Shown here piece by piece: positions 1,910 to 27,316 of a DNA stretch of 44,309 nucleotides. The DNA comes from Micavibrio sp. TMED27 (lineage in GTDB: Bacteria > Pseudomonadota > Alphaproteobacteria > Micavibrionales > Micavibrionaceae). Numbering within the stretch: position 1 is the first letter of the stretch; every line of letters starts with the position of its first letter. The stretch covers positions 91,458 to 135,766 of the forward strand of contig NHCG01000017.1 in assembly GCA_002167715.1 (NCBI GenBank), written 5' to 3'. The position numbers and the translations under genes are program-made. A model generated the notes under the pieces. The model had not been told where the DNA came from, searched no databases, and was given only the letters and a program-made list of their open reading frames with translations.

Positions 1910-2213
1910 GTATTCCTCCATTCGGTTTTAATCGTTTGTCCTGCCCATCAACTTTTGAAACAGGCGCTAAACCCGGCTTTTCATCGGATGCGGAAAGGAG
2001 CTGTATTGAATCTACCCCAAAACCTAAATCAACGAAAGCCGCCATTATCAGCCACAGGTTTTTTATTAACTCGGCCTCTTCTTCAGCCGTCAATTCAAAC
2101 TCCTGCACGTGCTCGCGATATTTTTCAATATCACATTTTGGCGGATTAACAACAGGCAGAACTTGAGAAGAAGCCCATTCATCAGTCAATCTGAATTTAT
2201 CTTTATCAGTCAT
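1899..2213 (-). CDS. Small acidic protein coupled to the recombinase
   Basis: This 104-residue protein has no motif I can name. A conserved-looking core (about 32-72) runs EFELTAEEEAELIKNLW and then FVDLGFGVDS, probably helical. The start is fixed by AGGAGG a few bases before the ATG at 2213. Its stop overlaps the recombinase start by about 11 bases. Small genes coupled to a serine recombinase are sometimes directionality factors or regulators. That role is only inferred from position here. Confidence 0.8.
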   Translation of the reverse strand: MTDKDKFRLTDEWASSQVLPVVNPPKCDIEKYREHVQEFELTAEEEAELIKNLWLIMAAFVDLGFGVDSIQLLSASDEKPGLAPVSKVDGQDKRLKPNGGIHDD

Positions 2214-3163: not shown

Positions 3164-3442
3164 TTAAAGCTTCCGCCTGTCGATAATGGAGAAGACAGGG
3201 CAATCACCACTTTCGCGATACCGGACAAAACCTCGCGAACCGATATACTGGCAGTCAATCATGTAGCGATAGGAACCGTGCTGTTGGTAGGTGTATTGCC
3301 AACGCAAATGAGGCCCGATGGGTGAAACTAAAAATGCTGCAAGCAAAAACAGAGGCCAACTACTTATAATTCCTGCAATGCTGCGAATGAAAGCAGCAAA
3401 AACCTTCCCCCACCGAATACGTTTGGGTTTGTAATGGCTCAC
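3164..3442 (-). CDS. Small membrane protein next to the coupling protein
   Basis: This 92-residue protein has a basic N-terminus, one hydrophobic segment (about 18-42) and a C-terminal domain with two cysteines (IDCQY and SGDCPVF). It starts with GTG, and that codon shares bases with the TGA stop of the VirD4-like gene, so the pair is tightly coupled. A T4CP accessory or anchoring role is inferred from this overlap. No family is recognized. Confidence 0.75.
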   Translation of the reverse strand: MSHYKPKRIRWGKVFAAFIRSIAGIISSWPLFLLAAFLVSPIGPHLRWQYTYQQHGSYRYMIDCQYIGSRGFVRYRESGDCPVFSIIDRRKL

Positions 3443-5193: not shown

Positions 5194-5197
5194 AGCA

Positions 5198-9420: not shown

Positions 9421-9606
9421 ATGACTGATCAAATATTGACCTTGAAAGAGGTTGCAGTGTACCTAAAGCTTGCTGAGAAAACGGCTTATAAACTCGCCGC
9501 CGAAGGCAAGTTACCTGGCTTTAAAGTCGGGGGAAGCTGGCGTTTCAAGGCTAAAGATATAGACCGCTGGATAGAAGATAAAAAGAAAACTAACAAGGGC
9601 AACTAA
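9421..9606 (+). CDS. Excisionase-family HTH protein
   Basis: This 61-residue protein matches the excisionase/MerR-like small HTH pattern. LTLKEVAVYLKLAEKTAYKL is the helix-turn-helix, and PGFKVGGSWRFKAKDIDRWI is the wing and second helix. The ATG at 9421 begins this domain exactly. An in-frame ATG at 9403 is possible but would add an unneeded extension. The stop overlaps the hsdM start (TAATG), so it belongs to the R-M operon. It probably regulates R-M expression rather than excision. Confidence 0.88.
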   Translation: MTDQILTLKEVAVYLKLAEKTAYKLAAEGKLPGFKVGGSWRFKAKDIDRWIEDKKKTNKGN

Positions 9607-11615
9607 TGGCACAGCTAGTAAATATAGAAGCAATAGAGAAACGGCTTTGGGGCAGTGCCGATAACCTTCGCGCCAACAGCAACTACGCCAGCAATGAATA
9701 CTTCATGCCCGTGATGGGGCTGATCTTCCTTCGCCACGCCTACAGCCGCTATTTGGGGGTTAAGCCAGAAATCGAGGCTTCGCTGCCATCCCGAGGCGGT
9801 GTAACCAGACCGCTCACCAAAGAAGATTTTTCCAGTAAAGGCGCGATCTTCCTCCAGGAAAAAGCCCAATTCGACACTCTGGTGAACCTCACCGAAGCCG
9901 ATGACCGCGCCCAAGCTATCATTGACGCGATGGAGGCCATCGAAGACGACTACGAAACCCTCAAAGGCGTATTACCCAAAAGCGAATACCAAGAGCTGGA
10001 CAACGATGTGCTCGGCAACTTACTTCGCACATTCAACGACCCAGCTCTCAAAAAAGCCACTGGCGACATCTTTGGCCGTATCTACGAATATTTCCTAACC
10101 CAGTTTGCCAACCAAAGTGCCCATGACGGCGGTGAATTCTTCACGCCTGTGTCACTGGTGCAGATGATCGTGAACTTTATCGAGCCAGATCACGGCTCGG
10201 TGATTGATCCCGCTTGCGGTTCTGGCGGTATGTTTGTGCAAAGCGCTCACTTCATCGAGAAGATGCACAAGAACCCGCAGGACGTAGCCACCTTCTATGG
10301 CGCGGAGAAAAACCCGACCACCATTCGCCTTGCCAAGATGAACTTGGCGGTTCATGGCCTCGAAGGAAAAATCCAGAAAGCCATTTCCTATTACGAAGAC
10401 CCGCATGATTTTCTAGGCAAAGCCAATTTCGTGATGGCTAATCCACCGTTCAACGTCGATGACGTAGATGCAGAGAAAATCAAGAACGACCCGAGGCTGC
10501 CCTTTGGCTTGCCAGGGGTAAATAAGAAGGGCTCGGTTTCCAATGGTAACTACCTTTGGATTTCTTATTTCTACAGCTATTTGAATAAAGAAGGCCGTGC
10601 AGGCTTTGTTATGTCCTCGCAGGCATCCAGTGCCGGAGGGCAGGAAGCGGAAGTACGCCGCAAGCTCGTGGAAAGTGGCCATGTCGGCGCGATGGTCGCC
10701 ATTCGCTCTAACTTCTTCTATACCCGCTCAGTGCCGTGTGAGCTTTGGTTCTTTAACAAGAACAAGCCAGCACATATGAAAGACAAGGTACTGATGCTCG
10801 ATGCTCGCAATGTCTATACAAAAGTCACGCGGAAAATTTATGACTTCTCTCCCGAACAACTGGCAAACCTAACTTCTATCGTTTGGCTCTATCGTGGCCA
10901 GAATGAGCGTTTCCTTGAGTTGATCGAAAGCTACCAACGCACTGCACTTGACGAAGCGCAGGTATCAGCCAAAGCTCTCAATAGCTTTATCGGCTCTGCT
11001 GATGGTCTTATCACCAAGATAATTAATATTGATGACGAAACCAAGACTGCGTTCGAGACGCTATGCAGTGATTGTAAGGTTTTTACCGAGAGCAGCGAAA
11101 AGACCTCCGCGAAATGGGAGGCTTTGCCAAGCGACAATAACGGGCTGCACAAAGCATCGCTGCTTATTGAGCCGTTAGCGGAAACCAGCCGTGACCTTAT
11201 CAAGCAGATCGACCAGCTCTATAAGTTTATTGAAAAACAAGCCAAAGAAAGCGGTGAAAAAGGCTTGAACAAACCGATCAAAGAAATTGATGAACAGCGC
11301 AAAGAAGCTGTCGAGCAGTTAAAGCTCATCCGTTACTTCTTCAAGCAAGCGCATTGGCTGCAAGAGCGCTTTCCTGATGCGCAGCTTGCTGACGTGGAAG
11401 GCTTGGTCAAGCTGGTCGATATTGAAGAAATCAAGGCCAATGACTGGAGCTTAACCCCAGGGCGTTATGTTGGCATTGCGCCGGAGATTGAGGACGAAGA
11501 TTTCGACTTTGAAGAAACGTTGCGTGATATTCATGGCGAGCTGAAAGGCTTGAATGAAGAGGCCTCAAACTTAGCTGCCCAAATTCAGAAAAACTTTGAG
11601 GAGCTGGGTATATGA
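9606..11615 (+). CDS. hsdM: Type I restriction-modification methyltransferase subunit
   Basis: This 669-residue N6-adenine methyltransferase pairs with HsdS for methylation and with HsdR for restriction. The N-terminal HsdM helical domain (about 10-160) is followed by the SAM site DPACGSGG (201-208) and the catalytic NPPF (279-282). An extended C-terminal helical region makes it longer than the roughly 500 residues of EcoKI HsdM. That is usual for this subfamily. It overlaps hsdS by four bases (ATGA). All key residues look intact. Confidence 0.96.
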   Translation: MAQLVNIEAIEKRLWGSADNLRANSNYASNEYFMPVMGLIFLRHAYSRYLGVKPEIEASLPSRGGVTRPLTKEDFSSKGAIFLQEKAQFDTLVNLTEADDRAQAIIDAMEAIEDDYETLKGVLPKSEYQELDNDVLGNLLRTFNDPALKKATGDIFGRIYEYFLTQFANQSAHDGGEFFTPVSLVQMIVNFIEPDHGSVIDPACGSGGMFVQSAHFIEKMHKNPQDVATFYGAEKNPTTIRLAKMNLAVHGLEGKIQKAISYYEDPHDFLGKANFVMANPPFNVDDVDAEKIKNDPRLPFGLPGVNKKGSVSNGNYLWISYFYSYLNKEGRAGFVMSSQASSAGGQEAEVRRKLVESGHVGAMVAIRSNFFYTRSVPCELWFFNKNKPAHMKDKVLMLDARNVYTKVTRKIYDFSPEQLANLTSIVWLYRGQNERFLELIESYQRTALDEAQVSAKALNSFIGSADGLITKIINIDDETKTAFETLCSDCKVFTESSEKTSAKWEALPSDNNGLHKASLLIEPLAETSRDLIKQIDQLYKFIEKQAKESGEKGLNKPIKEIDEQRKEAVEQLKLIRYFFKQAHWLQERFPDAQLADVEGLVKLVDIEEIKANDWSLTPGRYVGIAPEIEDEDFDFEETLRDIHGELKGLNEEASNLAAQIQKNFEELGI

Positions 11616-12751
11616 GTTGGGGGCAGATTGCAATTGAAGATATCGCGCTAGTCAAAGGAGGAAAGAGGCTTCCTAAAGGCCATGATTTCGTCTCGTATCC
11701 GACTCCGTATCCATATATAAGGGCTAGGGATATTGGTCAGGGTAAAATTGAAATCAAAGACTATGTGTACCTGTCTGAGGAAACGCATGAAAAAATAAAA
11801 CGATATATTGTTAACAAAGGTGATGTTGTCATAACAATTGTGGGGGCAAATGTCGGCGATGTTGGATATGTTCAAGATAATTTGGATGGCGCAAATTTAA
11901 CAGAAAATGCTGCCAAACTTGTAGTCGATAAGTCGAAGATTGATCCTTATTTTTTGAAGCTTTATTTGTCTACTGAGCAGAATAAAAAGCGATTAGCTTT
12001 TATTGCCTCAGGTGCTGCCCAAGGAAAATTGGGATTGTATAAGATCAAAACTTTTCCTGTTAGTAACCCACCGTTAGATGCGCAGAAACAGATTGTTCAG
12101 ATTGTTCAGACTTACGACGACCTCATTGAAAACAATAAGCGGCGGATTGAGCTGCTGGAGGAATCAGCGAGGCAGCTTTACAAAGAATGGTTTGTGCGTT
12201 TTCGCTTCCCCGGCCATGAGCATGTTAAAATAGTTGATGGCGTGCCGGAGGGGTGGGAGAAGAGGAAGCTCAAAGAGCTACTCACTTTAAACTACGGAAA
12301 AGCTCTGAAATCCGACAATAGAATACCAGGCGATTTTCCTGTTTATGGTTCCAGCGGTGTAGTCGGCTCACACAATAAAGCTCTTGTTAAGGGGCCGGGA
12401 ATCATTGTTGGAAGGAAAGGTAATGTCGGCGCGATTTACTGGTCCAACTTGGACTTTTTCCCAATAGATACCGTTTATTTCATCAAAGCAGAAGAAAGCA
12501 GTTATTTTATATATTACGCACTGCTACATATTACATTTATAAATACTGACGTCGCTGTTCCAGGTTTAAATCGTGATTTTGCTTATAGTAGGGAAGTAGT
12601 TGTACCAAACGACACATTAAGAGAAGAGTTTGAAGACGAGGTTGCACCAATTTTCAAACAGTGTCATACGCTCGAAAAGTACAATGAGCAATTATCGAAA
12701 GCCCGCGACCTTCTCCTCCCCAAACTCATGAGCGGTGAGGTTACAGTATGA
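11612..12751 (+). CDS. hsdS: Type I R-M specificity subunit
   Basis: This 379-residue protein determines the recognition site. It has two target-recognition domains (about 1-165 and 215-350), each followed by a conserved helix. The central spacer contains ELLEESARQLYKEWFVRFRF, and the C-terminal one ends in ARDLLLPKLMSGEV. The first domain is markedly AT-rich compared with hsdM, consistent with frequent exchange of recognition domains. It overlaps both hsdM and hsdR by four bases. Confidence 0.95.
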   Translation: MSWGQIAIEDIALVKGGKRLPKGHDFVSYPTPYPYIRARDIGQGKIEIKDYVYLSEETHEKIKRYIVNKGDVVITIVGANVGDVGYVQDNLDGANLTENAAKLVVDKSKIDPYFLKLYLSTEQNKKRLAFIASGAAQGKLGLYKIKTFPVSNPPLDAQKQIVQIVQTYDDLIENNKRRIELLEESARQLYKEWFVRFRFPGHEHVKIVDGVPEGWEKRKLKELLTLNYGKALKSDNRIPGDFPVYGSSGVVGSHNKALVKGPGIIVGRKGNVGAIYWSNLDFFPIDTVYFIKAEESSYFIYYALLHITFINTDVAVPGLNRDFAYSREVVVPNDTLREEFEDEVAPIFKQCHTLEKYNEQLSKARDLLLPKLMSGEVTV

Positions 12752-15700
12752 TGGCTCCGCTCAATGAAGATACGCTTGTTCAGGCTACGACGGCAGACTA
12801 TCTGGAAGAGCAGTTAGGCTGGGAAAGCGTTTTCGCCTACAACAGTGAGACTTACCGCAATGAAGGGACTCTCGGTAGGCTAAATGATAAGGAAGTTGTT
12901 CTTACACGCTATCTTGGCGAAGCGCTTGTGAAGTTCAATCCTGGCCTGCCCGATGCAGCCTATCAGGATGCGCTGCGTCAGATCACCGAAGCGCCTGTTA
13001 CTGAAAACACCCTACAAATCAATTTTGAGCAGTACGAGCTGATTAAAAGCGGCGTTCAGGTTCAGTTCCGCAATGCCAAAGGTGAGCTTGAGAAAAAGCG
13101 CCTGAAGGTTTTTGATTTCGACAACCCAGAAAACAATCATTTCCTTTGCGTGCGTGAGCTATGGGTGCGTGGTGATATTTATCGCCGCCGCGCTGACATC
13201 GTTGGTTTTGTAAATGGCCTTCCCTTGATGTTTATCGAGTGCAAGACCATTCACAAAGACATCCGTCATGCTTACGAGCAAAACCTATCCGATTATAAAG
13301 ATACCATCCCGCATCTCTTCCACCACAATGCCTTTGTGATTTTGGGGAACGGCGTGGATGCCAAGATCGGCTCGATCTCCAGCAAGTTTGAACACTTCAA
13401 TGATTGGAAGCGTTTAGCCGAAGACGATCCTGGCGTGGTGGATATGGAGACCTTGCTCAAAGGTATCTGTAACAAGCGCGATTTTCTCGATCTCTTTGAA
13501 AACTACACACTCTTTGATGAGAGCAAAGGCAAGCTGGTTAAAATCATTGCCCGTAACCACCAGTTTTTAGGCGTAAACCGCGCCATCGAAGCGGTGAAGA
13601 ATCGAGAAGAGCGCAAAGGCAAGCTCGGGGTGTTTTGGCATACACAAGGCTCGGGTAAATCCTATTCCATCGTATTCTTTGCGCGCAAAATTCACCGCAA
13701 GCTAGGTGGCAATTTTACCTTCCTGATTTGTACCGACCGTGAAGATTTGGATAAGCAAATCTATAACACCTTCGCAGGCTGCGGCCTTGTCGATAATGAT
13801 CAAGACCCATGCCGCGCAGGCTCAGGCGATCATTTACAGAAGCTATTGAAGCAGCACAAGGCCTATGTTTTCACGCTGGTGCAGAAGTTTAACAAGGATG
13901 TTGATCCGAATGAGCCTTATTCAGACCGCAACGACATTATCGTCATTACCGATGAAGCGCACCGCACCCAATATGGGCGCTTGTCGCTAAACCTTCGCAA
14001 TGCACTGCCCAATGCCAGCTATATCGGTTTCACCGGAACGCCTCTATTCAAGGATGATGAAATCACCCGCCGCGTCTTCGGCGATTATGTCTCCACCTAT
14101 GACTTCCAACGCGCTGTTGAAGATAAAGCCACCGTTCCTTTGTACTACGATGCGCGAGGTGAGAAGCTAGGCCTTGCCACCAATGACCTCAACGAAAAGA
14201 TTGCAGCCAAGCTGGAAGAAATCGAAATAGACGATCAGGACGTAAGCGAGCGCTTGGAGCGGGAATTAAAGCGCGATTACCACATCATCACTGCTCAAAG
14301 CCGCCTGGAGCAAATCGCTGAAGATTTTGTCGAGCACTACAGCGTAGGTGGTTTGAACGGCAAGGCGATGATGGTCTGCATCGATAAGATCACTTGTGTG
14401 CGGATGCAGGAGATTATCCTTGAGAAGTGGCAGGCTAAAATTGCTGAGCTTGCAAAGGAGTTGCCCAAGCTGGCTGATGAGCAAGCCATCATGGATATGG
14501 AGCGCAAGCTTACCTGGATGCGTGAAACCATCGTGGCCGTGGTGGTGAGTGAGGAACAAGGCGAAGTTGATAAGTTCCGCAAGTGGGAACTCGATATCAC
14601 CCCGCACCGTAAGCTGATCAAAGAAGGCTTTGAAACACCCGACGGCAAGCGCATTGATATAGAGAGCGCTTTTAAGAAGGAAGAGCATCCGTTCCGTGTC
14701 GCCATCGTATGCGCCATGTGGCTCACTGGCTTTGATGTACCAACCATGTCTACCCTTTACCTCGATAAACCGCTCAAGGCGCATACCTTGATGCAGGCCA
14801 TCGCCCGCGCAAACCGCGTGGCCGAGGGCAAGAATAATGGCTTGATTGTTGATTACTGCGGCATCTTGAAAAACTTGCGCAAAGCCCTTGCGACCTTTGC
14901 TGGTCATACGGGCGGTGAAGGTGGAGATGGACAGCCACCACCAGAACTTGATCCAGTAAGACCGGAAGAAGAATTGCTGGCAGACCTCGAAGAAACCATC
15001 GAGGCCGTAAGAGCCTTCCTGGTAGCAAAAGAATTTAGACTGGAAGATGTGTTGGAGAAAAAGGGCTTTGAGCGCAACAAAGCCATTATTGATGCAAAAG
15101 AAGTCGTTAACCAGAATGATGAAACCCGCAAGCGCTTTGAGATTATCTGCCGCGAGGTTTTCAAAAAGTTCAAGGCTTGCTTAACCATCAAAGCGATAAA
15201 TAGTTACCGCTCGGCCTACGATGCAATCAATATCATCTACAAGAGCCTGCAAGATGATGTTGAGAGAGCGGATATCTCTGACATTATGCGCGAGCTGCAC
15301 GCTGTAATCGAAGAGAGCATCGAGCCAACAACTGGCGTAAAAGAGCCAAGCAAGCTTTACGATATCAGCAAGATCGATTTTGAGCGGCTAAGAAAAGAAT
15401 TTGAACGCTCACCCGCTAAGAATACAACCGTGCAAAGCCTAAAAGAAATCATCGAGAAGAAACTCCTCAAAATGCTCATGCAAAACCCGACGAGAACGGA
15501 TTTTCAAAAGCACTACGAAGAAATCGTTAATGACTACAACAACGAGAAGGATCGCGTAACTATCGAGGCTACGTTTGAAGCCTTGCTCAAGATTGTTGAA
15601 GGACTTAGTGAGGAAGAGCAGCGCGCAGTTAAGGAAGGTTTATCCGAGGAGTCTTTGGCATTGTTCGATTTACTACTAAAGCCCGACCTTTCCAAAAAGG

Positions 15701-15954
15701 AGATTGATCGTATTAAAAAAGTGGCCGAAGGTCTTTACAGCACGATAAAGGAAGAGCTTGGCCGCATTCAAGATTTCGCTGCGAAGCAAGGCACGAGGGA
15801 TGAGATAAAGGTCAAGATCAAAAACTTCCTGTGGGATGACAAAACTGGATTGCCGGAAAGCTTTGCACCAGATGAGGTGGAAGAGAAAACAGATGCCGTA
15901 TTTAAACACCTTATTATCACGCAGCGGAATTCCTCTAGAAACATAGGCTTCTAG
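12748..15954 (+). CDS. hsdR: Type I R-M restriction subunit (translocase-nuclease)
   Basis: This 1068-residue protein translocates and cuts unmethylated DNA. The N-terminal PD-(D/E)xK nuclease shows D150 and E164-C-K166. The SF2 motor follows, with Walker A GSGKS (301-305), DEAH (402-405) and a later TGFD and QAIARANR motif (helicase motif VI region). The C-terminal third is helical and probably binds HsdM. It looks full length and intact. The next gene starts 49 bases downstream. Confidence 0.96.
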   Translation: MMAPLNEDTLVQATTADYLEEQLGWESVFAYNSETYRNEGTLGRLNDKEVVLTRYLGEALVKFNPGLPDAAYQDALRQITEAPVTENTLQINFEQYELIKSGVQVQFRNAKGELEKKRLKVFDFDNPENNHFLCVRELWVRGDIYRRRADIVGFVNGLPLMFIECKTIHKDIRHAYEQNLSDYKDTIPHLFHHNAFVILGNGVDAKIGSISSKFEHFNDWKRLAEDDPGVVDMETLLKGICNKRDFLDLFENYTLFDESKGKLVKIIARNHQFLGVNRAIEAVKNREERKGKLGVFWHTQGSGKSYSIVFFARKIHRKLGGNFTFLICTDREDLDKQIYNTFAGCGLVDNDQDPCRAGSGDHLQKLLKQHKAYVFTLVQKFNKDVDPNEPYSDRNDIIVITDEAHRTQYGRLSLNLRNALPNASYIGFTGTPLFKDDEITRRVFGDYVSTYDFQRAVEDKATVPLYYDARGEKLGLATNDLNEKIAAKLEEIEIDDQDVSERLERELKRDYHIITAQSRLEQIAEDFVEHYSVGGLNGKAMMVCIDKITCVRMQEIILEKWQAKIAELAKELPKLADEQAIMDMERKLTWMRETIVAVVVSEEQGEVDKFRKWELDITPHRKLIKEGFETPDGKRIDIESAFKKEEHPFRVAIVCAMWLTGFDVPTMSTLYLDKPLKAHTLMQAIARANRVAEGKNNGLIVDYCGILKNLRKALATFAGHTGGEGGDGQPPPELDPVRPEEELLADLEETIEAVRAFLVAKEFRLEDVLEKKGFERNKAIIDAKEVVNQNDETRKRFEIICREVFKKFKACLTIKAINSYRSAYDAINIIYKSLQDDVERADISDIMRELHAVIEESIEPTTGVKEPSKLYDISKIDFERLRKEFERSPAKNTTVQSLKEIIEKKLLKMLMQNPTRTDFQKHYEEIVNDYNNEKDRVTIEATFEALLKIVEGLSEEEQRAVKEGLSEESLALFDLLLKPDLSKKEIDRIKKVAEGLYSTIKEELGRIQDFAAKQGTRDEIKVKIKNFLWDDKTGLPESFAPDEVEEKTDAVFKHLIITQRNSSRNIGF

Positions 15955-16003: not shown

Positions 16004-16492
16004 ATGGCTAATAAAATTAAAAATGTTTTTGTGAGTCATCATCATAAGGATGATGCTAGTGTTGATGGTCTTACCAATATGCTTACAGGTAAGGGTTATC
16101 AATTAAGAAACAGCTCTATCCGCGTCAAGCCTGAAAACCAAAGCCGTTTCGATAATAAACAAGTAAGTGACAATACAATTAAACGTCTCCTACGGATGAA
16201 AATGCGTTGGGCCAGTCAGGTTATAGTCGTGATTGGCAAGGAGACTCATCAACGGGATTGGGTGAACTGGGAGATTGAAACTGCCCATCGGCTTGGCAAA
16301 CCGATAATTGGTGTTTACGAGAATGGCCTTAAAGATCAAGTCGAAATACCGGACAGCTTGAAGAAGCATGCAACGTCAATTATTGGTTGGAGATCAGATT
16401 CTGTAATTGATGCACTCGAAGGAAAAAGCCAGTTCCAGAATCCAGATGGTACCCCATCACCAAAGGTAGCAGGACGCAACATTACATGCTAG
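16004..16492 (+). CDS. ThsB-like TIR domain protein
   Basis: This 162-residue protein is a single TIR-like domain of the ThsB/DUF1863 type. The first strand is NVFVSHHHKDD. The ASQVIVVIGKETHQRDWVNW segment leads to E90, placed like the catalytic glutamate of NAD-consuming TIRs. GKPIIGVYE forms the next strand. In Thoeris defence, such TIRs make a cyclic ADP-ribose-type signal after phage infection. TGGAGGG precedes the ATG. The end overlaps the Nmad2 gene by seven bases. A signalling function here is inferred from family and context. Confidence 0.88.
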   Translation: MANKIKNVFVSHHHKDDASVDGLTNMLTGKGYQLRNSSIRVKPENQSRFDNKQVSDNTIKRLLRMKMRWASQVIVVIGKETHQRDWVNWEIETAHRLGKPIIGVYENGLKDQVEIPDSLKKHATSIIGWRSDSVIDALEGKSQFQNPDGTPSPKVAGRNITC

Positions 16493-17151
16493 TTACGCCA
16501 AATTCTCACTTATTTATATATGTGATTGCCAGGGATTATGGCTTTGCTCCAAATCCATTTCACGGTACTTGTACTCTGGCCACGTGCAAGCCAGGAATCA
16601 GGAAGTCCGCAATGATTGGCGATTGGATTTTAGGAGTGGGCGGAAAAAATCTCGGCTCTGCTCACAGGAAATGCATTCTGCTAATGAAAGTAACAGAAAA
16701 ACTTACATTTCAAGATTATTGGGAAGACGCTCGTTTTTCATTGAAAAAACCGTGTCGTAACGGAAGTAACGTGATGATGCTGGGTGACAACATATACCAC
16801 AAGAATGACGACGGAAATTGGATTCAGGAAGATTCACATCATAGTAATGCGGATGGTAGTGCGAATCTTTTTAATTTAGGCAGAGATACTGGAGATTCAG
16901 AACAAGTATTAGTCTCGAATTTCTTCTTCTATTTTGGTGGCCAAGCAATTACGGTTGATTTGGATTCTGTTAGCTACTTTTCTGGGCCAGGCTATAAGAA
17001 GATTGATCTAGCTACCTCCAATGCTGGAAAGGAATTAATCGAATCAACATATAAAAGCTACAAAAGTGATTTAAACTGCATTATTTCTGATCCATGTCAG
17101 TTTATGGATTCGCATCAGCGAGTGGATCAAGTCACAAATAAAATATCGTAA
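16486..17151 (+). CDS. Nmad2-family putative nucleotide-modification protein
   Basis: The 221-residue protein matches the nucleotide modification associated domain 2 pattern as I recall it. IYVIARDYGFAPNPFHGTCT is followed by LATCKPGIRKSAMIGDWILG near the N-terminus, with a conserved-looking FFYFGG later (about 145-150). Nmad families were predicted computationally to work with modified bases, and no reaction is established to my knowledge. It lies between two TIR genes and overlaps the first, so co-expression is likely. Confidence 0.8.
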   Translation: MLVTPNSHLFIYVIARDYGFAPNPFHGTCTLATCKPGIRKSAMIGDWILGVGGKNLGSAHRKCILLMKVTEKLTFQDYWEDARFSLKKPCRNGSNVMMLGDNIYHKNDDGNWIQEDSHHSNADGSANLFNLGRDTGDSEQVLVSNFFFYFGGQAITVDLDSVSYFSGPGYKKIDLATSNAGKELIESTYKSYKSDLNCIISDPCQFMDSHQRVDQVTNKIS

Positions 17152-17162
17152 AGGGGTATTCA

Positions 17163-17708
17163 ATGAATTTTGAAAAAAGGAAAGTTTTTATATCTCACTT
17201 CAAAGCTAATAGAGATGAGGTGGATACATTCATTGAGACTTTCCGTGAGGTATTTGTTCCGAAAGTTCTAGGTGCGAATGACAACGATGAATTTATAGAT
17301 AGCACTAACACAGAATATGTAATGCAACGTATCCGAGAAAAGTATCTTGGAGATAGCACTGTAACTATTGTGCTTCTTGGGTCGTGTACACATGGCAGAA
17401 GATACGTTGATTGGGAAATTAAAAGCTCGTTACGGCAGGGAAGCCAACTACCAAATGGTTTGATGGCAATCGTGCTACCAAGCCAAAATGATTCGGCATG
17501 GTTACCGGAAAGATTTAGTGCAAACTGGGATAAGGGTCATGCAAATTGCTATGCGAGATACTGGTCTTACCCTTCGACAAGGCAGCAATTAAGGGATTGG
17601 ATTGAAGATGCCTATCAGGCGCGTACTACACGCGCAAAACTGATTGACAATTCACTACCCATGATGAAAAACAACGCGAAATGCAAAACTTGTGAAGTCA
17701 CGCACTAA
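17163..17708 (+). CDS. Second ThsB-like TIR domain protein
   Basis: This 181-residue protein is another ThsB-type TIR, clearly diverged from the first. KVFISHFKANRDEV is strand 1 and helix 1. STVTIVLLGSCTHGRRYVDW leads to E85 in the catalytic-glutamate position. The C-terminal tail contains KCKTCE, a possible metal-binding or redox pair. AGGGG precedes the ATG, and the stop overlaps the next start (TAATG). Two different ThsB-like TIRs may recognize different triggers, as proposed for multi-ThsB Thoeris loci. Confidence 0.88.
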   Translation: MNFEKRKVFISHFKANRDEVDTFIETFREVFVPKVLGANDNDEFIDSTNTEYVMQRIREKYLGDSTVTIVLLGSCTHGRRYVDWEIKSSLRQGSQLPNGLMAIVLPSQNDSAWLPERFSANWDKGHANCYARYWSYPSTRQQLRDWIEDAYQARTTRAKLIDNSLPMMKNNAKCKTCEVTH

Positions 17709-19729
17709 TGGAAATTCAATATGCACCGCCACTTGCTGTTAATTTTGTCTGGAATTTTGCAGATTCCGAAGCTGTTAATCCAATAATTGACGTTGTAAGA
17801 AGGAGCTTTGCAAGAGACAAAGACAAGCCATTTTCTAGAGGGCTGAATATACCTCTATTTTTCTACAGCTCTCAGAATTCCAATGAAATTCCTCATGATA
17901 GCCCCAATGCATTAGCAAAGAAAAATGTATTTTTTGTATTCACAAGCGTGAATACAAATGGAAGAGAGAACTGGCGGAAATACGTGGAAGAGCTTCCTGC
18001 TTCGCCTTCCACGACCATTATACCAATAGCTATAGACGAAAATGGATTGGCACATAAAGGTTCTCTGGCGGGGGCGAACTGCATTCGTGCATATGATTGG
18101 CCGACTGATAATGCGGATTTTTACGCAATTGTGTCGCTGGCGCACGAAATCTATCGCTATGGATGTTTATCAATTAATCCTGACGATTCGAGCAAGACTT
18201 CCTCCATCACCATCTTCTTAAGCCATGCAAAAGCTGGTGATACAGGAAGGTTACATTCAGAGGAAATCAAAAAGTTTTTAGACAATACAAATCTCAATCG
18301 CTTTTTTGATGCTACAGAAATATCTCCTGGCTTTCAGTTTGATCAGGAAATCGAGAAGAGCGTTAAGAAGTCAACTCTTGTCGCAATTGAAAGTGATGCA
18401 TATTCATCTCGATATTGGTGCCAGCGAGAAATTCTTTGCGCAAAGCAGCATAATCGTCCCATCGTGGTAGTGAACAGCCTCAATGACTACGAAGATCGAA
18501 TTTTCCCCGCTGCATCAAACGTCCCGTGTGTGCATGTTTCGTCGGAAGCCCCGTTAAGTCAGCGTGACATATTGCGCATATTATCAGCAGCTTTACTGGA
18601 AACTGTTCGTTATACTCATTCTGTTCAATGCCTTGAATATTACAAAGAAATTGGATGGCTTGAAGATGAATGTGAATTATCGGCTCGACCACCAGAAATC
18701 AGGCAGGCATTGAAGGTAAAAAGCAACAATAAGAAAAAGATATGTTACCCAGAGCCTCCTATATATTTGGATGAGGCCGATTGGCATATTCATTTAGAGA
18801 TAGAGGCGTTTACGCCCCTTTGGAGCTTTGCTGAAAAAGATTGCTTGCTTCAACAGCAAATTGGTATCTCAATCTCTGATGTGCAAGGAGATAACTTTTC
18901 AAACAATCACATTCATCCCGATCATTTAATTCGACTAACACAAGACATTGCCAGACATTTGTTGGCACGATCTGCCACTCTGATTTATGGCGGCGATTTG
19001 CGTCCCGGCGGTTTCACAGAGTTTGTTCTTGATGAAGCGGCAATTTTAAAGGAGCGGATCGGAGGCGAATTGCCAACAATAGAAAATCATTTGGCATGGC
19101 CACTATATGTGTCGGAGCCTGAGATTGTTGCTTGGAGAGCAAAATACAGCGATGTAATGAAATCTGTTGAACACGAGATACCAAGCGACGTTGCGAACGG
19201 ACTTGCACAAGATGTCTTTTTGCCTCCAACTACTCGGGAAAATGCATACGTTTGGTCTAGATGCCTAACCGAGATGCGAGAAAAGTCTATTGCTTCCTCA
19301 ACAGTCAGAATTTGTTCCGGTGGAAAGCTGTCCGGTTATAAAGGAAAAATGCCAGGGGTACTTGAAGAAATCGTATTGGCTTTTAGCTCCCAAAAACCAA
19401 CTTTTTTGCTCGGGGCATTTGGCGGCGTAGTTGGAAGTGTCTGTAGCTTATTGCTCACGAAAGCTGTGCCAGAAGAACTGACTGAGGATTGGCAGGTGTC
19501 TCGCAATTCGGGATATGGTGAGCTGCAAGCTATTGCAAAAAGCCATGGGAAAGACTGTGATTACAGCGCTGTAATCGAATTTCTTCAGAAGCAAAATCTA
19601 TCAGATTTGGCAAATCGGTGTGGGCTTGCTGAGGACCAATACATAAGAATAATGAACTCTCCATTCATAGATGAATGTCTTTATTTGATCCTTAAAGGAT
19701 TAAATAAGTTGAATGGCAGTAAATCGTGA
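17708..19729 (+). CDS. TIR-SLOG fusion protein, predicted effector
   Basis: This 673-residue protein has three parts. Residues 1-155 look like a degenerate TIR-like fold, with strands such as NVFFVFTSV but no catalytic-type glutamate. Residues 166-290 are a TIR domain (ITIFLSHAKAGDTG, then SRYWCQREILCAK with E241). Residues about 385-590 resemble a SLOG/LOG Rossmann domain: IGISISD, IYGGDLRPGGFTEF, and FLLGAFGGVVGSVCSL. In Thoeris ThsA a SLOG domain binds the TIR-made signal and switches on an NAD-cleaving partner domain. Here that effector domain would be a TIR instead of Sir2. Sensor and effector assignments are inferred. Confidence 0.82.
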   Translation: MEIQYAPPLAVNFVWNFADSEAVNPIIDVVRRSFARDKDKPFSRGLNIPLFFYSSQNSNEIPHDSPNALAKKNVFFVFTSVNTNGRENWRKYVEELPASPSTTIIPIAIDENGLAHKGSLAGANCIRAYDWPTDNADFYAIVSLAHEIYRYGCLSINPDDSSKTSSITIFLSHAKAGDTGRLHSEEIKKFLDNTNLNRFFDATEISPGFQFDQEIEKSVKKSTLVAIESDAYSSRYWCQREILCAKQHNRPIVVVNSLNDYEDRIFPAASNVPCVHVSSEAPLSQRDILRILSAALLETVRYTHSVQCLEYYKEIGWLEDECELSARPPEIRQALKVKSNNKKKICYPEPPIYLDEADWHIHLEIEAFTPLWSFAEKDCLLQQQIGISISDVQGDNFSNNHIHPDHLIRLTQDIARHLLARSATLIYGGDLRPGGFTEFVLDEAAILKERIGGELPTIENHLAWPLYVSEPEIVAWRAKYSDVMKSVEHEIPSDVANGLAQDVFLPPTTRENAYVWSRCLTEMREKSIASSTVRICSGGKLSGYKGKMPGVLEEIVLAFSSQKPTFLLGAFGGVVGSVCSLLLTKAVPEELTEDWQVSRNSGYGELQAIAKSHGKDCDYSAVIEFLQKQNLSDLANRCGLAEDQYIRIMNSPFIDECLYLILKGLNKLNGSKS

Positions 19730-19785: not shown

Positions 19786-20898
19786 ATGGACAGTGACACC
19801 AGCATATCTTTTCTTCGACAGTACGAACTGTCCATTGAAAAGACTGATAGGTTTTCGAAGGATGAAATCACGCCAATCCTTATGGGGCTATACGGCGAAG
19901 TTGGCAGCATTATGGCCACCTCGAAAAAATACTATCGGGAGGAAAAGGCATATGCTGGTCATAGAACTGCCGTTGAAGAAGAATTTGGAGACGCTTTCTG
20001 GTATTTGTCGGCTTTGTGCCGTCGTTTAGATATTGATATAGAGAGTGTTTTCGCGGAGAAAACTGAGGATAAAGGCACTTTAAACGCTTTGGAATCCAAA
20101 TCAACTGTTTCAAAAGAGCTTGACGCTGCCTTAATTGATCTCGGTTGTGCTGTTACTGAGCTACTTAAGGCGAAAGAAAATATTGGTCTTCTAAAGAATG
20201 AAGCACTAAATGTTGCCTGCTTATACAGTTCTGCGCTTGAATTAACTGGCCTAGAATTTCGCAAAGTAGTTGATGATAATTTGAATAAGACGCTTGGTAG
20301 ATTTTCTGAGCTTGATCGAAGCAAGCTTGAGGATTTTGACGCAGCCTTTCCAGTAGATGAACAGCTACCAAGACATTTTGAAATTTACATTACTCAGAGA
20401 AAAAGTGGACTGAGCTATCTTAAGTGGAATGGTGTCTTTATCGGCGACCCTCTAACTGACAATATAAGTAAACCCGACGGTTATCGTTTTCATGATGTTT
20501 TTCATATGGCTCATGCCGCAGTTCTGCATTGGTCACCAACTTTTAGGTCATTAATTAAACAAAAGAGGAAGAGTGATCCTGCTACAGATAGAGACCAAGA
20601 TGGGGGACGTGCAATAGTTGTCGAAGAGGGGCTAACTGCATGGCTATTCTCTTATGCGCAAGGACTCGATAATTTTGAAGGGCATAGTGGTGTATCTTTT
20701 GATGTTTTAAAGACCATTCAAAAGTTTATTCAAGGCTATGAAGTGGAAAGATGCCCCCTTAAATTATGGGAGAACGCCATTCTTCAGGGTTATGCAGTAT
20801 TTAGAAAGATGAAAGAAAATAATGGTGGAATAGTGGTTGGGAATCGTGATGAAAGAACCCTGCGATACCGCCCAATAGGAGAGCGTGATGAAAGCTGA
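19786..20898 (+). CDS. MazG-like pyrophosphohydrolase with a novel C-terminal domain
   Basis: This 370-residue protein starts with an all-alpha MazG-like fold. LYGEVGSIMATSKKYY and then EEEFGDAFWYLSALCRRLDI give the E-x-x-E/D-type metal cluster, with S41 where many family members have glutamate. MazG enzymes hydrolyse nucleoside triphosphates to monophosphates. The C-terminal half (about 200-370) is a separate domain with YRFHDVFHMAHAAVLHW and VVEEGLTAWLF, whose histidine/aspartate cluster suggests a second metal site. AAAGG lies upstream of the start. It overlaps the UDG-like gene by 11 bases. Confidence 0.8.
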   Translation: MDSDTSISFLRQYELSIEKTDRFSKDEITPILMGLYGEVGSIMATSKKYYREEKAYAGHRTAVEEEFGDAFWYLSALCRRLDIDIESVFAEKTEDKGTLNALESKSTVSKELDAALIDLGCAVTELLKAKENIGLLKNEALNVACLYSSALELTGLEFRKVVDDNLNKTLGRFSELDRSKLEDFDAAFPVDEQLPRHFEIYITQRKSGLSYLKWNGVFIGDPLTDNISKPDGYRFHDVFHMAHAAVLHWSPTFRSLIKQKRKSDPATDRDQDGGRAIVVEEGLTAWLFSYAQGLDNFEGHSGVSFDVLKTIQKFIQGYEVERCPLKLWENAILQGYAVFRKMKENNGGIVVGNRDERTLRYRPIGERDES

Positions 20899-21556
20899 AT
20901 GCTTTGTAAAAAAATTGGTCAATTTGAAGTTCGAAAACACTTTTAATCCATATTCAGATCGCTGTGAAATTTATGATTATTTTGATGCCCCCAATAGACG
21001 GCGCGCAATTTTAAGAAAAATGTTGGAAGCTGCAAGTCAGGTAGAGGTTGATGCAATATGGATAGGTCGAGATTTGGGATATAGGGGTGGTCGACGGACT
21101 GGACTTGCGTTAACGGACGATATTCATTTTTGTAATCACGTAGGCAGATGGCAGCTCGATTATAGTAGGCTTACAAAAGGTGATGCAGTACCTGAGCGTA
21201 CTGCTGCAGTCATATGGAGTGTTCTATCTCAAATTACATCCCCTGTTTTTTTATGGAATGTATTTCCACTTCATCCATTTGAAGCCGGTTCTCCCTTTAG
21301 CAATCGTGCTCATAATTCAACTGAAAGAAAGGCTGGAGAAGAAATACTGGAGATTCTCATTGATTTTCTAAAGCCAAAAAGGTTAGTCGCGATTGGAAAT
21401 GATGCCAAAAGTGCCGTACATAGATTTGGGGATCGTTGTGAGGTTATTAAGGTTCGACATCCGAGTTATGGTGGCCAGAATATTTTTCTACATCAAATAC
21501 AGTCGCTCTATGGCATAGAGCAAGCTACCCCACGTAATATGGCGTTGTTTGATTAA
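20888..21556 (+). CDS. Uracil-DNA-glycosylase-superfamily protein
   Basis: This 222-residue protein shows the UDG-fold signature. IWIGRDLGYRGGRRTG (57-72) matches motif A. LWNVFPLHPFEAG (122-134) fits the base-recognition strand. RHPSYGGQ (190-197) matches the HPS leaving-group motif. The family removes uracil or other damaged bases from DNA. I prefer the ATG at 20888, with AGGAGA upstream, over the in-frame GTG at 20885. Its start overlaps the MazG-like gene's end. Activity and substrate are not predictable, and a modified-base target linked to Nmad2 is only a hypothesis. Confidence 0.83.
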   Translation: MKAECFVKKLVNLKFENTFNPYSDRCEIYDYFDAPNRRRAILRKMLEAASQVEVDAIWIGRDLGYRGGRRTGLALTDDIHFCNHVGRWQLDYSRLTKGDAVPERTAAVIWSVLSQITSPVFLWNVFPLHPFEAGSPFSNRAHNSTERKAGEEILEILIDFLKPKRLVAIGNDAKSAVHRFGDRCEVIKVRHPSYGGQNIFLHQIQSLYGIEQATPRNMALFD

Positions 21557-23531: not shown

Positions 23532-24980
23532 CTAATAAATCGTTTCCTCAAAATAACCAGTTCTTCCAGAGCATGGATAGCCTTCTTTTGTTTTATGGGG
23601 GTTTAGTCTGGAATTCTGTTTTTTGCGCTTGAAAGTTTTTTGGCAAACTGGGCAGCGATAAACATAGGTTGGGCCGCTGTTAGAAAAGCTAGTTCTTCTG
23701 GTTGGGTTTGCTCTCGGTCTTACTGGCGCGCTTTTGGGTATATCCAGGCTCGGCAGAGCGCCTCCAGAATATTGGGCAGGAGGAATATTCAAACTTGGCG
23801 ATAATTCAATCTGGTAACGCGGTATAAATGTTTGGTTGACAATAGAAGCATCATTAATTTGATTAATCTTGTACGCCCTGATTTGCCCGTTATCCGCTCG
23901 CACCGCGTAAAGTAAAATATTGCCGTTTTGGGCTTGGCGTAGTGAATATGGCTCAATAACGCGGGTTCTTCGGTTTCCTTCGTTATCTGTGTAATCCAGA
24001 TTGACGCATAATCTGTTCCCCGCTGCAAAGCGGATTATTTCTAAGGATCGCCCACTCAAAGCCCGCAAGTTTAATTGGCCATAGGCCGGACGATAAATAT
24101 TGCCTTCTCGTGATACGGCACCGAGAGTCGTTCTTCTTACTGTCTCTGGGCTTTCTAACCATTCAAAGAATTCTGGTAATGCATCCCAGTACAACTCAAA
24201 TGCAGGTAGTGCCGGAAGCTGGTGGGCAAGCATTGGCTCCCAGTTTTGAATAAGTGCGTCCCTGTAGTTATCCATATCGGCAAGCGTTGGCTTTTCGATT
24301 TCCTTGTAGGCACATTTTTGTGCCAGGACATCGTTTATTATGGCCGGAGCAGGCAATTGATCATTTCGATATAAGTTGATGACATCGTATAAATCTCTTG
24401 GTCTGCCGCGTTCGCCAAGTGCCCTTACTTTTTCGCCGAACACTTCCGGGTAGGAGTAGCAATTCACATGAATCCCGTCGCCGGGCACATCGCTATATGA
24501 ATGGATTACGGGTTGCCTTGAAGGAGGCATGACCAGGACTTCATCTGCTGTCAGATCAAGTTTGATTTTGGGCATCGCTCTTTTACTGCTTGCAAAGTAG
24601 CTGCCGTAATAAATACGACCCTGGCAAGACTTTTTGCCTCTTGGGTTTTCGTATATGTCGAACTTGAACCTGTCTTGTGGTAGTTCAATACCGCAGGCTT
24701 CGTACAACCATTCTGCTATTTCCGAAAATTGTGCGGTTAGAAAATCTTCATCAAGGTGGCTTTCATCTTTCAGGGTGAAATCCAAATCTTCAGAGAAGCG
24801 GTAGGTTTCGAAATAGCATTTTTTAAGGCAGGTTCCGCCCTTGAAAACCCAGCCATCAGAAAATGCCATGTTTTGGTGAATAGCGGCCAACAACCAACCG
24901 AGGACATAATCCTTTTCAACGACAGCCGGAGTTAAGCCAGTTTCATCGGCAACGGAAAGTATTTCGTCTTTACTAATCAA
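23532..24980 (-). CDS. AbiEii-type nucleotidyltransferase toxin with WYL-like and zinc-finger extension
   Basis: The 482-residue protein has three parts. The N-terminal nucleotidyltransferase carries VEKDYVLGWLL (21-31), FKGGTCLKKC (46-55) and RFSEDLDF (61-68), and GEKVRALGERGRPRDLYDV later. These are the AbiEii/AbiGii motifs. Residues about 305-380 (EIIRFAAGNRLCVNLDY, then RTRVIEPYSLR and LYAVRADNGQIRAYKI) look WYL-like. The C-terminus holds a zinc finger (YRCPVCQKTFKRKKQN plus a later cysteine). AbiEii toxins transfer nucleotides onto tRNA or other targets in type IV-class toxin-antitoxin systems. The extension is unusual. It overlaps the antitoxin gene by four bases. Confidence 0.87.
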   Translation of the reverse strand: MISKDEILSVADETGLTPAVVEKDYVLGWLLAAIHQNMAFSDGWVFKGGTCLKKCYFETYRFSEDLDFTLKDESHLDEDFLTAQFSEIAEWLYEACGIELPQDRFKFDIYENPRGKKSCQGRIYYGSYFASSKRAMPKIKLDLTADEVLVMPPSRQPVIHSYSDVPGDGIHVNCYSYPEVFGEKVRALGERGRPRDLYDVINLYRNDQLPAPAIINDVLAQKCAYKEIEKPTLADMDNYRDALIQNWEPMLAHQLPALPAFELYWDALPEFFEWLESPETVRRTTLGAVSREGNIYRPAYGQLNLRALSGRSLEIIRFAAGNRLCVNLDYTDNEGNRRTRVIEPYSLRQAQNGNILLYAVRADNGQIRAYKINQINDASIVNQTFIPRYQIELSPSLNIPPAQYSGGALPSLDIPKSAPVRPRANPTRRTSFSNSGPTYVYRCPVCQKTFKRKKQNSRLNPHKTKEGYPCSGRTGYFEETIY

Positions 24981-25771
24981 AATTTATATCCTTTGGGTAT
25001 CCATAGCCGCCACTTGGTCATAAGGCTTTTGTCAGTTGCCGTTTTATCAAGCTGCGTATATCCCGTTGTAAGGTTATTCGCGCATTCGTCAATGAAGGTT
25101 TGCTCAAAACCAAGCGCTTCAGCTAGGAAGCCCAGCTTTTTGAAGAGAGCGCCATTACCGATTTGTCTTGCGTAGGCCAATAGCTTGTCGAGATCGCTTT
25201 GCTTGCCATAGAGTTGCTTGAACTCTTTCAAACAATCGACGGTATGCTGTAGGCCAGCACCGAGATAGGGATCGTCAATTATGTCGAGAATTGTTTTATA
25301 GGGATCAGAGACGCTGATTTTAATCTGGTCACGCCAGATCGTTTTTGTTCCGAATATCTGGTCTTCTGGAATGTGTTTAACGAAAAAATTAACACCTTGA
25401 TGTTCAGTATTTCCAAAGGTAGTCCGCTTACTGGTGAGTACGCAAACTGAACGGAATAATTGTTCTGTCAGCTCCCAATGCTCAAGCGCACTCCAGCCGC
25501 CCACATAGCCAGGGCTGTATAGCTCGGGCACAAGTATCCAAGGGTCTTCCAAAACTTGAGTTTTTCCCAGTGCGGTGGGTTGGACTGGTACATAGAGACC
25601 TCTGGCAACGCGCCGAAGAACGCCTTGGTTATGCCAGCCAGCCAGTAGCTTTGCTGCATGTGACCTGTCTAAATCCAGAGCTTTCATAGCATCATCAACT
25701 CGGATAGTGCCCGAGCTATGCCGCAGGACGGTAGCTAACCTTTTTTGGCGCATTGAAACTTGATTATTCAT
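24977..25771 (-). CDS. AbiEi-family antitoxin and repressor
   Basis: The 264-residue protein has an N-terminal winged helix (about 8-65, with VDDAMKALDLDRSHAAKLLA and RRVARGLYVPV) and a C-terminal domain typical of AbiEi: PWILVPELYSPGYVGGWSAL, LTSKRTTFGN, and DPYKTILDIIDDPYLGAG. The family neutralizes AbiEii and represses its own promoter through inverted repeats. A large dyad overlapping a TATAAT box lies 40-85 bases upstream of this start. Its stop overlaps the toxin start (ATGA). Confidence 0.9.
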   Translation of the reverse strand: MNNQVSMRQKRLATVLRHSSGTIRVDDAMKALDLDRSHAAKLLAGWHNQGVLRRVARGLYVPVQPTALGKTQVLEDPWILVPELYSPGYVGGWSALEHWELTEQLFRSVCVLTSKRTTFGNTEHQGVNFFVKHIPEDQIFGTKTIWRDQIKISVSDPYKTILDIIDDPYLGAGLQHTVDCLKEFKQLYGKQSDLDKLLAYARQIGNGALFKKLGFLAEALGFEQTFIDECANNLTTGYTQLDKTATDKSLMTKWRLWIPKGYKF

Positions 25772-25926: not shown

Positions 25927-25985
25927 GTGTCTCTTAACGTGTCCTTAAACTCTGAATTTGTCCTTTAAACTTTCTTTAAGGACAC
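25927..25985. repeat. Repeated GTGTCCTTAAA-type motifs after the relaxase
   Basis: GTGTCCTTAAA (25939-25949) and TTTAAGGACAC (25975-25985) form a perfect 11-bp inverted repeat. Between them is TGTCCTTTAAA (25959-25969), and a weaker TGTGTCTCTTAA copy starts at 25,928. The last copy overlaps the relaxase stop codon. They could be a minus-strand hairpin ending the mob operon or iteron-like binding sites. Confidence 0.55.
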
Positions 25986-27316
25986 TAGATTTCCGGCTCA
26001 TGCCCACGATCTCGGTTTTTATCCCGTTTTGGCGCGGGTTTTCGCTTCTTCTCATGTTGCTCTGAGCGTTTGCGGTATTCATCCTTCAGATTACTGGATT
26101 TTCCGGTTTTTAAATCCCGGTAATCTTCAATATCCTGGCGCAACAGTTCGATTTCCAGCTCATGGGTATGGATTTCACTACGCTGACGCAGGCTGAGTTG
26201 CTGGCGTTGCTGGATATGCTTGAAAATCAGCTCGTCTTTTTCCTGGCGGTCTCGCTGGAAGGCGACAAGCGCATCTAGTTCATTTTGGCGTTTGGTTTTC
26301 TCATACTTGCCTGTAAGACGATGCCAGATACCCATAAGTCCCTTGGATAGGCGCTCTGAGCGCTCTTTTGTTTCTGTCTCCCAGCGTTTGCGATGCGCTG
26401 TTTCAAGAGATTGCCGCTCTTTGCGCTGTTCTTCCACCAATCGCTGGCGTTTGAATTCAAAGGCGGCGGAGCGTTTTTGTTTGGTTGCCTCGGCGTGGGA
26501 AAGGTGTTGCTGAAGCTTCTTGGACATATCCGCCGCTATTTGCTCTTTGGCTTGCTCAATGGATGGCAGGGTTTGCGGGTCTCCCAGCCGCTCTCGAACA
26601 TCCTTGGCCTTTACGCCAGCATATCTGGCGACTGCGTAGGCTTCGCCACGGTAATCGACTGCAACAAAGCCTCGCCGATCACCGCGAGCAAGAACAAAGC
26701 CTTTACTGAGCAGAGCCGCCGCAAAGGCGTTGCGGTTATCAGAGATCGCCCAGCTTTCCTGAAATGTCCGTTTAATGTCTTTAGGGTTCAGGCCAACACG
26801 CCGAGCTTGTTGCCATTCCTCTCGGCTGAAGTTGAGTGGATTTCGATCCTTGCGGTCAATGATGCCTGGCGGAATTTTCCAGCCATGCTCCAAATACAGC
26901 TCCCTGGATACGTCTTTCAGCTTCATTTTGTAGAATGGCAGGTTGATAGCCTTCATCTCGTCTGTGTCGATCCTCGACCAAACGACGTGGGCATGACGGC
27001 GACCTTCTTTCTCGTGAAATACGATGGCGCGGGGCTGATCTTCCAGACCGAGCTTTTGCTCTATCTGCTCGATAGCCGTTTCAAAGACCTCAATCGGCAC
27101 ACGCTCGGTAGGCGGTGGGCTGAGACTCAGGGAGAAAAAAGGCTGTTTGGCACGAGTCCCCTTGCTCACTGCATGGATTTCAATGAAGGCGGAAGGTAGG
27201 TCTTCAGACATAAACCCCCGCAGCTCGTGGATTTCGACATGCTCATTGTCTTCGGTTTTGAGCAAATGCGCGGCGAGCTGCCTGCCGCCTGAGCGCTGGC
27301 TACCCTTCAAAATCAT
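25985..27316 (-). CDS. Relaxase / mobilization nuclease (MOBP-like)
   Basis: This 443-residue relaxase should nick oriT and lead the transferred strand. The N-terminal domain includes LKGSQRSGGRQLAAHLL (3-19) and ELRGFM. The metal-binding histidine motif HEKEGRRHAHVVW (101-113) follows. I cannot point with confidence to the catalytic tyrosine. The rest is a long charged coiled coil (about 255-420) with a basic tail. It lies two bases downstream of mobC in one operon. The coupling protein is encoded at the opposite end of the element. Confidence 0.9.
   Translation of the reverse strand: MILKGSQRSGGRQLAAHLLKTEDNEHVEIHELRGFMSEDLPSAFIEIHAVSKGTRAKQPFFSLSLSPPPTERVPIEVFETAIEQIEQKLGLEDQPRAIVFHEKEGRRHAHVVWSRIDTDEMKAINLPFYKMKLKDVSRELYLEHGWKIPPGIIDRKDRNPLNFSREEWQQARRVGLNPKDIKRTFQESWAISDNRNAFAAALLSKGFVLARGDRRGFVAVDYRGEAYAVARYAGVKAKDVRERLGDPQTLPSIEQAKEQIAADMSKKLQQHLSHAEATKQKRSAAFEFKRQRLVEEQRKERQSLETAHRKRWETETKERSERLSKGLMGIWHRLTGKYEKTKRQNELDALVAFQRDRQEKDELIFKHIQQRQQLSLRQRSEIHTHELEIELLRQDIEDYRDLKTGKSSNLKDEYRKRSEQHEKKRKPAPKRDKNRDRGHEPEI

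Follow-up and report, generated by a model that had tools for sequence, protein, structure and literature searches.

A conserved and mobile pair of genes for predicted enzymes, MazG-MazG_C and a UDG-superfamily protein, in a TIR-linked cassette

What might a MazG-like protein with a second, conserved domain and a UDG-like protein do together, when their genes overlap in a bacterial genome? The question is raised by a 44,309-nt stretch of contig NHCG01000017.1 of Micavibrio sp. TMED27 (hereafter the window), in which a sequence-only reading had proposed a nucleotide-pool hydrolase coupled to a base-removing enzyme directed at unusual bases in phage DNA. Both open reading frames claimed by that reading are present on the forward strand: the MazG-MazG_C gene at 19786..20898 (370 aa), which also contains both of the residue strings quoted at the time, and the UDG-superfamily gene, which ends at 21556. 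The first start of the latter in the list of open reading frames is GTG 20885, and a relative, L013, begins at the equivalent of ATG 20888. Judged from this relative, the gene occupies 20888..21556 (222 aa) and overlaps its neighbour by 11 nt, in agreement with the overlap first noted. Compared with L013, dN/dS is approximately 0.10-0.11 for both MazG-MazG_C and UDG.

The N-terminal half of the first protein (residues 1-177, 19786..20316, forward strand) is a diverged MazG followed by a second unit of helices (about residues 105-173). PF03819 (MazG) was matched there with 21.6 bits (E 0.00026), slightly under the curated cut-off of 22. The MazG NTP pyrophosphohydrolases carry four acidic metal ligands in an ExxE...ExxD motif. 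Among 32 aligned homologues, E38, E66 and D69 are invariant, and the second glutamate of ExxE (position 41) is found in one only, being replaced by serine in the window protein; one of the four ligands is thus lost in 31 of the 32, the window protein among them, and full MazG activity should therefore not be assumed. In a VIA structural comparison, residues 6-176 of the predicted model (whole-protein mean pLDDT 81.5) were arranged like the all-helical dUTPases: rows 1-7 (Z 12.3-9.0) all hold dUTPases or structures published in papers on dUTPases, mostly of what we take to be the dimeric class, and the next row is a MazG at Z 6.9. The best row (Z 12.3, 184 residues aligned, rmsd 4.9) falls below the value of about 13 that VIA states unrelated helical bundles reach, which, together with the lost metal ligand, counts against reading this half as a nucleotide hydrolase. 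The second helical unit corresponds to a stretch of 67-118 residues in the intact long forms of the alignment and is missing from 12 of the 32 proteins. Foldseek with the whole protein gave no E-value under 0.001 (best 0.086, a helical sensor and designed proteins) and was uninformative because the helical half filled the list, so that the C-terminal half was modelled alone.

That C-terminal half, which the sequence-only reading could assign to no family, is the MazG_C domain of Pfam (PF18722), spanning residues 181-363 (20326..20874, forward strand) with 263.2 bits against a cut-off of 29.7 (E 1.5e-78). The proposal had been held to fail if this half turned out to be a known non-enzymatic domain and the UDG-like protein to lack base-excision activity; on the first count, PF18722 is a family not shown to be non-enzymatic, and a literature search found no paper in which a function of MazG_C was tested. 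Seven residues, H236, D237, H240, D268, D272, R275 and E281, are invariant in the 32 homologues, the window protein included. Three of them lie in the motif HDVFH (residues 236-240, 20491..20505) and one in the pair E280-E281 (20623..20628), of which E280 is present in 30 of 32. The overall observation made from the sequence therefore holds for the two genes and their overlap, fails for the family assignment, and holds in part for the cluster of histidines and acidic residues: H236, D237, H240, D268, D272, E281 and, nearly so, E280 are conserved, but H243 and H248 are histidines in 9 and 11 of 32 respectively. HxxxH with a distant glutamate resembles many metal sites, and the conservation pattern of MazG_C is compatible with a putative second metal site.

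The MazG_C domain modelled alone (pLDDT 89.9, pTM 0.88) is predicted to consist of a small sheet, an HDVFH-bearing helix, an E281-bearing helix, more helices and a terminal hairpin. The fold search suggested by the sequence-only reading brought no assignment, as no credible match to this model was found in the PDB (best E 0.69) or in BFVD (best E 0.074); VIA likewise gave nothing credible (best Z 4.1, a separase), nor did a profile search against PDB sequences (best E 1.3). This is an absence of matches in the PDB and BFVD and no proof that the fold is new. Neither MazG_C nor the UDG of the pair is represented by a PADLOC family.

The second protein matches PF03167 with 27.9 bits against a cut-off of 24.3 (E 2.9e-6), and its L013 counterpart reaches 30.7 bits. 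In an alignment of 24 members, including that of L035 at only about 30% identity, W58, G64, G67, R69, T71, G72, T76, N124, H129, P130, N139 and R140 are invariant, and the HPS motif (H191, P192, S193) is retained in 23 members at each position. Solved relatives were matched only weakly (4zbx, E 0.011). Family 4 of the UDGs has four iron-sulphur cysteines; these are not retained, C26 being the only cysteine conserved at 95% or above (23 of 24). Three further UDG matches, all stronger, and a dUTPase of family PF00692 are found in the host genome, which makes the UDG described here an accessory one.

The pair forms the end of a cassette of six forward-strand genes, in the order TIR1, Nmad2, TIR2, TIR-SLOG, MazG-MazG_C and UDG; the first four were absent from the earlier account of the pair. 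TIR1 (16004..16492, 162 aa) is of the ThsB type (PF08937 ThsB_TIR, 6e-22; PADLOC ThsB, 1.2e-65), with E90 invariant in 13 of 13 relatives. It is followed by Nmad2 (16486..17151, 221 aa; PF18753, 5e-61), for which no solved relative was found (best E 1.1), and by TIR2 (17163..17708, 181 aa), a second ThsB-type TIR protein (PF08937, 2.7e-15). The TIR-SLOG protein (17708..19729, 673 aa; PF13676 TIR_2, 1.4e-10; PF18163 SLOG cluster2, 2.6e-58) is likely an effector or a signal reader. The presence of TIR and SLOG genes in the cassette supports the phage-defence setting that had been suggested for the pair. The sole nucleotide match between the window and L013 runs from 16004, the first base of TIR1, to 21556, where the stop codon of UDG ends, at 86.4% identity; as this match is bounded exactly by the ends of the cassette, the six genes appear to move as a unit. 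Across all six, dN/dS against L013 is 0.03-0.12. The same gene order was observed in L015, where TIR2 is missing.

A type I restriction-modification set that looks complete (HsdM, HsdS and HsdR, 9606-15954, forward strand) ends 49 nt before the cassette, and L013 has no such set within 4.2 kb before its own. Elsewhere in the window are a tRNA-Arg (323-399), a serine recombinase gene (362-1921, reverse strand) whose end reaches it, a VirD4/TraG-type coupling protein (3439-5253, reverse) and a MobA/VirD2-like relaxase (25985-27316, reverse), which suggests that an integrated mobilisable element carries the cassette as cargo; for the tRNA-Arg region, direct repeats of at least 14 nt were searched for within the window and none was detected. 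An AbiEii toxin-like protein (23532-25771, reverse; PADLOC 1.9e-169) has a WYL-type match in its C-terminal part, and its gene adjoins one for an AbiEi-like protein, matched weakly and under the cut-off.

How tightly are the two genes coupled? Among plasmid records, UDG was found at 200 nt or less from a MazG_C relative in 22 of 30 rows (30 listed of 34 MazG_C records). For 6 of the 28 plasmid UDG rows (at least 42% identity) there is no MazG_C row among the matches listed, which counts against reading the pair as one module; some of the six may nonetheless have MazG_C, since four MazG_C records are outside the matches listed. Three of the six were examined: L027 has a MazG_C fragment, none was found in L028, and in L029 a NUDIX gene adjoins UDG instead. 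Two Hydrogenophaga UDG records with the same length and hit position were counted as one case. The distances between MazG_C proteins correlate with those between UDG proteins with r 0.878 over 24 loci, a value reached in 0 of 5000 permutations, and TIR1 and Nmad2 correlate with r 0.875 over 18 loci, compared with 0.61-0.67 for the four cross pairs (MazG_C or UDG against TIR1 or Nmad2); the calculation excludes L025, L027, L074, L077, L079, L081 and short proteins. All six correlations are higher than in 5000 of 5000 permutations, but shared ancestry alone raises such values, and the contrast between pairs is the informative part. Given this contrast, the cassette looks like two co-evolving sub-modules, MazG_C-UDG and TIR1-Nmad2. 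The coupling of MazG with UDG put forward from the sequence is thus borne out by both proximity and co-variation.

A search for relatives in 37 genomes gave a full-length match in the window's own genome only, with two others matching the MazG part alone. MazG_C was found in four of 398 genomes of a phylum sample and in 13 of 385 of a class sample, the window's own included in each. In the phage collection neither MazG nor UDG of the window had a match at 1e-5. Two divergent short relatives had hits in 293 and 250 phage records; in no case did the hit extend over 80% of the query, and among the 15 listed for each it lies in the MazG half alone. Divergent phage members of MazG_C do exist, as phrog_229 matches MazG_C alone (9.3e-17).

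The pair is, on the evidence of sequence comparison, a conserved and mobile two-gene module of predicted enzymes within a TIR-linked cassette. Our leading interpretation, tentative and held at somewhat less than even confidence, is that MazG-MazG_C and UDG form a two-enzyme module for dU-type nucleotides and phage DNA, standing at the end of a mobile anti-phage cassette linked to TIR and SLOG genes. The N-terminal half, with its diverged MazG and dUTPase-like arrangement, would hydrolyse a pyrimidine nucleotide that is dUTP-like or modified at position 5. HDVFH and E281 probably make MazG_C a second catalytic domain, which would then process the same nucleotide or what is formed from it; either the base would thereby stay out of host DNA, or the phage would run short of a precursor. 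The UDG-like protein would excise the same type of base from phage DNA and leave abasic sites, as Brig1 and Brig3 do with modified cytosines. Finally, TIR1 with Nmad2 and the TIR-SLOG protein would detect infection or damage, and both produce and interpret a signal derived from NAD, upon which the cell stops. We infer these activities, the TIR and SLOG roles being taken from what is described of Thoeris. By analogy with BapA and Brig3, MazG-MazG_C may be the nucleotide-level partner of UDG.

The partners of MazG_C bear on the nucleotide or uracil theme of this interpretation. Forty-five MazG_C loci were compared, comprising the 32 aligned proteins (window included) and 13 further loci. Dropped before counting were L025 (near L016), the same-contig repeats L037, L039, L040, L042 and L022-L024, the window's own loci L001 and L010, the MazG-only or partial L011, L012 and L026, the fragment L027, and L074 (on a contig as long as the L009 record). 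For L077, a 219-aa ORF where the contig breaks off, and L079, whose frames are split, the neighbouring genes decided the count. Since some of the remaining loci are closely related (e.g. L019 and L020), these numbers lack independence. The partner is UDG in 28 loci, HMUDK_hel in 14 and neither in three (L044, L045 and L050); no locus has both. Among the 32 aligned proteins, UDG accompanies all 20 long forms with the second helical unit and none of the 12 short ones. As a strict rule for the long forms this was rejected: in L083, L085 and L087, a MazG_C protein that has the second unit is accompanied by HMUDK_hel instead.

In 18 of the 28 UDG loci Nmad2 is present in the fetched flanks, 14 of these 18 also having a TIR gene (by comparison or Pfam). 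At least nine of the 28 have SLOG in the vicinity of the module, either as a fusion or as a gene of its own (the window, L002, L003, L009, L013-L015, L033 and L041). Seven others carry thymidylate-synthase-like, C1 peptidase and ImmA/IrrE genes, six of them together with an HTH gene; the flanks fetched for these seven contain neither TIR nor Nmad2, and the TIR link is therefore not obligatory. Three of the 28 (L014, L077 and L081) lie on contigs ending within or beside the module. Proteins of 144-165 aa stand beside Nmad2 in the place of TIR1 in L016 (1591-2088), L018 (6968-7414) and L043 (7826-8260), for which Pfam gave nothing; they may be diverged TIR proteins, since their counterpart in L017 (6928-7410) matches ThsB_TIR (1.4e-4).

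The 14 HMUDK_hel loci include three with Nmad2 and 11 with a thymidylate-synthase-like gene, a label based on RefSeq names and weak PHROG matches (5e-5 and 0.03); Pfam gave no thymidylate synthase match for two of these proteins. The uracil theme is supported in part, by the dUTPase-like arrangement, the exchangeable HMUDK_hel, the one distant NUDIX-UDG pair in L029 and the thymidylate-synthase-like neighbours, these last being weak by profile. By eye, HMUDK_hel resembles helix-hairpin-helix glycosylases; this likeness is not put forward here, as profile search of the PDB gave only aquaporin and CodY matches (E 0.18 or above); Pfam found nothing credible beyond HMUDK_hel itself. In two Bacteroidota-type loci (L031, 6517-9607; L038, 5517-8607), the genes after TIR1-Nmad2 encode HMUDK_hel and a radical SAM protein, and MazG_C is absent. 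An order of acyl-carrier-like, HTH, ImmA/IrrE, thymidylate-synthase-like, HMUDK_hel and MazG_C genes recurs in L006 (4205-8885), L048 (1537-6087), L051 (2287-6672) and L052 (2125-6729).

These neighbourhoods could also be read in terms of biosynthesis, with MazG_C, UDG or HMUDK_hel, thymidylate-synthase-like and carrier-like proteins making or editing a modified thymine or uracil nucleotide. Such a nucleotide would be a mark of self or toxic, and UDG would remove a misplaced base and not attack phage DNA. The frequency of HMUDK_hel and its association with the thymidylate-synthase-like genes argue for this, as do carrier-like genes in several loci (PP-binding only below cut-off), the fusion of HMUDK_hel with MazG and MazG_C in one 705-aa protein in L021, and the Sinorhizobium plasmid locus L032 (6474-11907), where TIR1-Nmad2 is followed by thymidylate synthase (Pfam 3.3e-14), an O-methyltransferase and HMUDK_hel, the synthase and methyltransferase standing beside Nmad2. 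We regard it as rather unlikely: the cassette of the window lacks genes for a thymidylate synthase, a kinase or a carrier, and TIR and SLOG genes are more in keeping with suicide signalling than with a mark on DNA.

A second alternative is that MazG-MazG_C and UDG control the signal, trimming or destroying an ADP-ribose-type messenger made by the TIR proteins and so setting its threshold or ending it. Pyrophosphohydrolases and NUDIX enzymes can cleave pyrophosphate links, for example in ADP-ribose; the pair sits among TIR and SLOG genes, and the NUDIX gene of L029 adjoins a related UDG. This explanation seems improbable given that the pair lacks TIR and Nmad2 in the fetched flanks of seven of 28 UDG loci and that MazG_C co-varies more closely with UDG (0.878) than either does with TIR1 (0.66-0.67). 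The MazG or dUTPase-like and UDG parent families are common housecleaning or repair enzymes, and the two proteins could on that ground be a redundant dUTPase-like enzyme and a redundant uracil-DNA glycosylase, but this is very improbable in a host with a dUTPase and three stronger UDG matches elsewhere in its genome, for a protein with no full-length relative in the 36 other genomes searched and a domain so sparse in the class sample (13 of 385), and in a mobile unit that takes in TIR genes.

The interpretation as a two-enzyme anti-phage module may be carried further. MazG_C would then be an undescribed catalytic fold acting on a uracil-type nucleotide, and the pair would provide immunity at two levels, pool and DNA, against phages with uracil or modified uracil, base excision being reported to a TIR-SLOG suicide signal and HMUDK_hel replacing UDG elsewhere; this fuller version we consider doubtful. 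If the two-enzyme module is right, it brings together attack on the nucleotide pool, the excision of bases from phage DNA and suicide through TIR/SLOG second messengers, each known separately as a form of defence, and gives the uncharacterised MazG_C domain a testable substrate class (dU-type nucleotides) and residues to mutate. The mutually exclusive UDG and HMUDK_hel of the loci seen offer a natural comparison for working out the role of MazG_C.

Relationships to known proteins and systems are partial in each case. The dimeric (all-helical) dUTPases have their helix arrangement in common with residues 6-176 of the predicted model, at about 10% identity, and differ in that the window protein has lost one metal ligand and gained MazG_C. 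In the consulted part of the DefensePredictor report (PMC13092281), MazG, MazG-C and NMAD are already listed as predicted, unvalidated defence domains, and UDG is spelled out in the same figure legend; the systems described there share these four domains with the cassette and are likewise predicted to act in defence, but its main text makes no mention of TIR or Thoeris, and TIR genes are present here. The same report labels MazG-C 'a predicted nucleotide kinase', a different guess that counts against the interpretation preferred here. The RefSeq name of the HMUDK_hel partner resembles this label, which may, at a guess, have come from it.

Like the cassette UDG, to which they are likened by description only, Brig1 and Brig3 are UDG-superfamily or UDG-like proteins of defence islands. 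Brig1 is reported to excise alpha-glucosyl-hydroxymethylcytosine from T4 DNA, with uracil DNA glycosylases as its top structural hits (PMC11078745), and Brig3 is described as a UDG-superfamily 5hmC glycosylase whose operon partner BapA turns glucosylated bases into its substrate (PMC13160076). As described, these substrates are modified cytosines, whereas uracil-type bases are proposed for the cassette UDG, and the partner preparing the substrate of Brig3 is a glucosyl hydrolase, in contrast to the MazG protein found here. With Thoeris, as far as the accounts consulted describe it, the cassette shares ThsB-type TIR proteins and a SLOG protein. TIR1 and TIR2 both carry the PF08937 domain of ThsB, and the TIR-SLOG protein does not qualify as the effector ThsA: no ThsA family was among its five PADLOC matches at E 0.1, and its Pfam domains are TIR_2 and LD_cluster2. 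ThsA is SIR2-SLOG or other in those accounts, whereas the SLOG protein of the cassette carries a TIR domain instead, and the cassette has in addition the genes for Nmad2, MazG_C and UDG.
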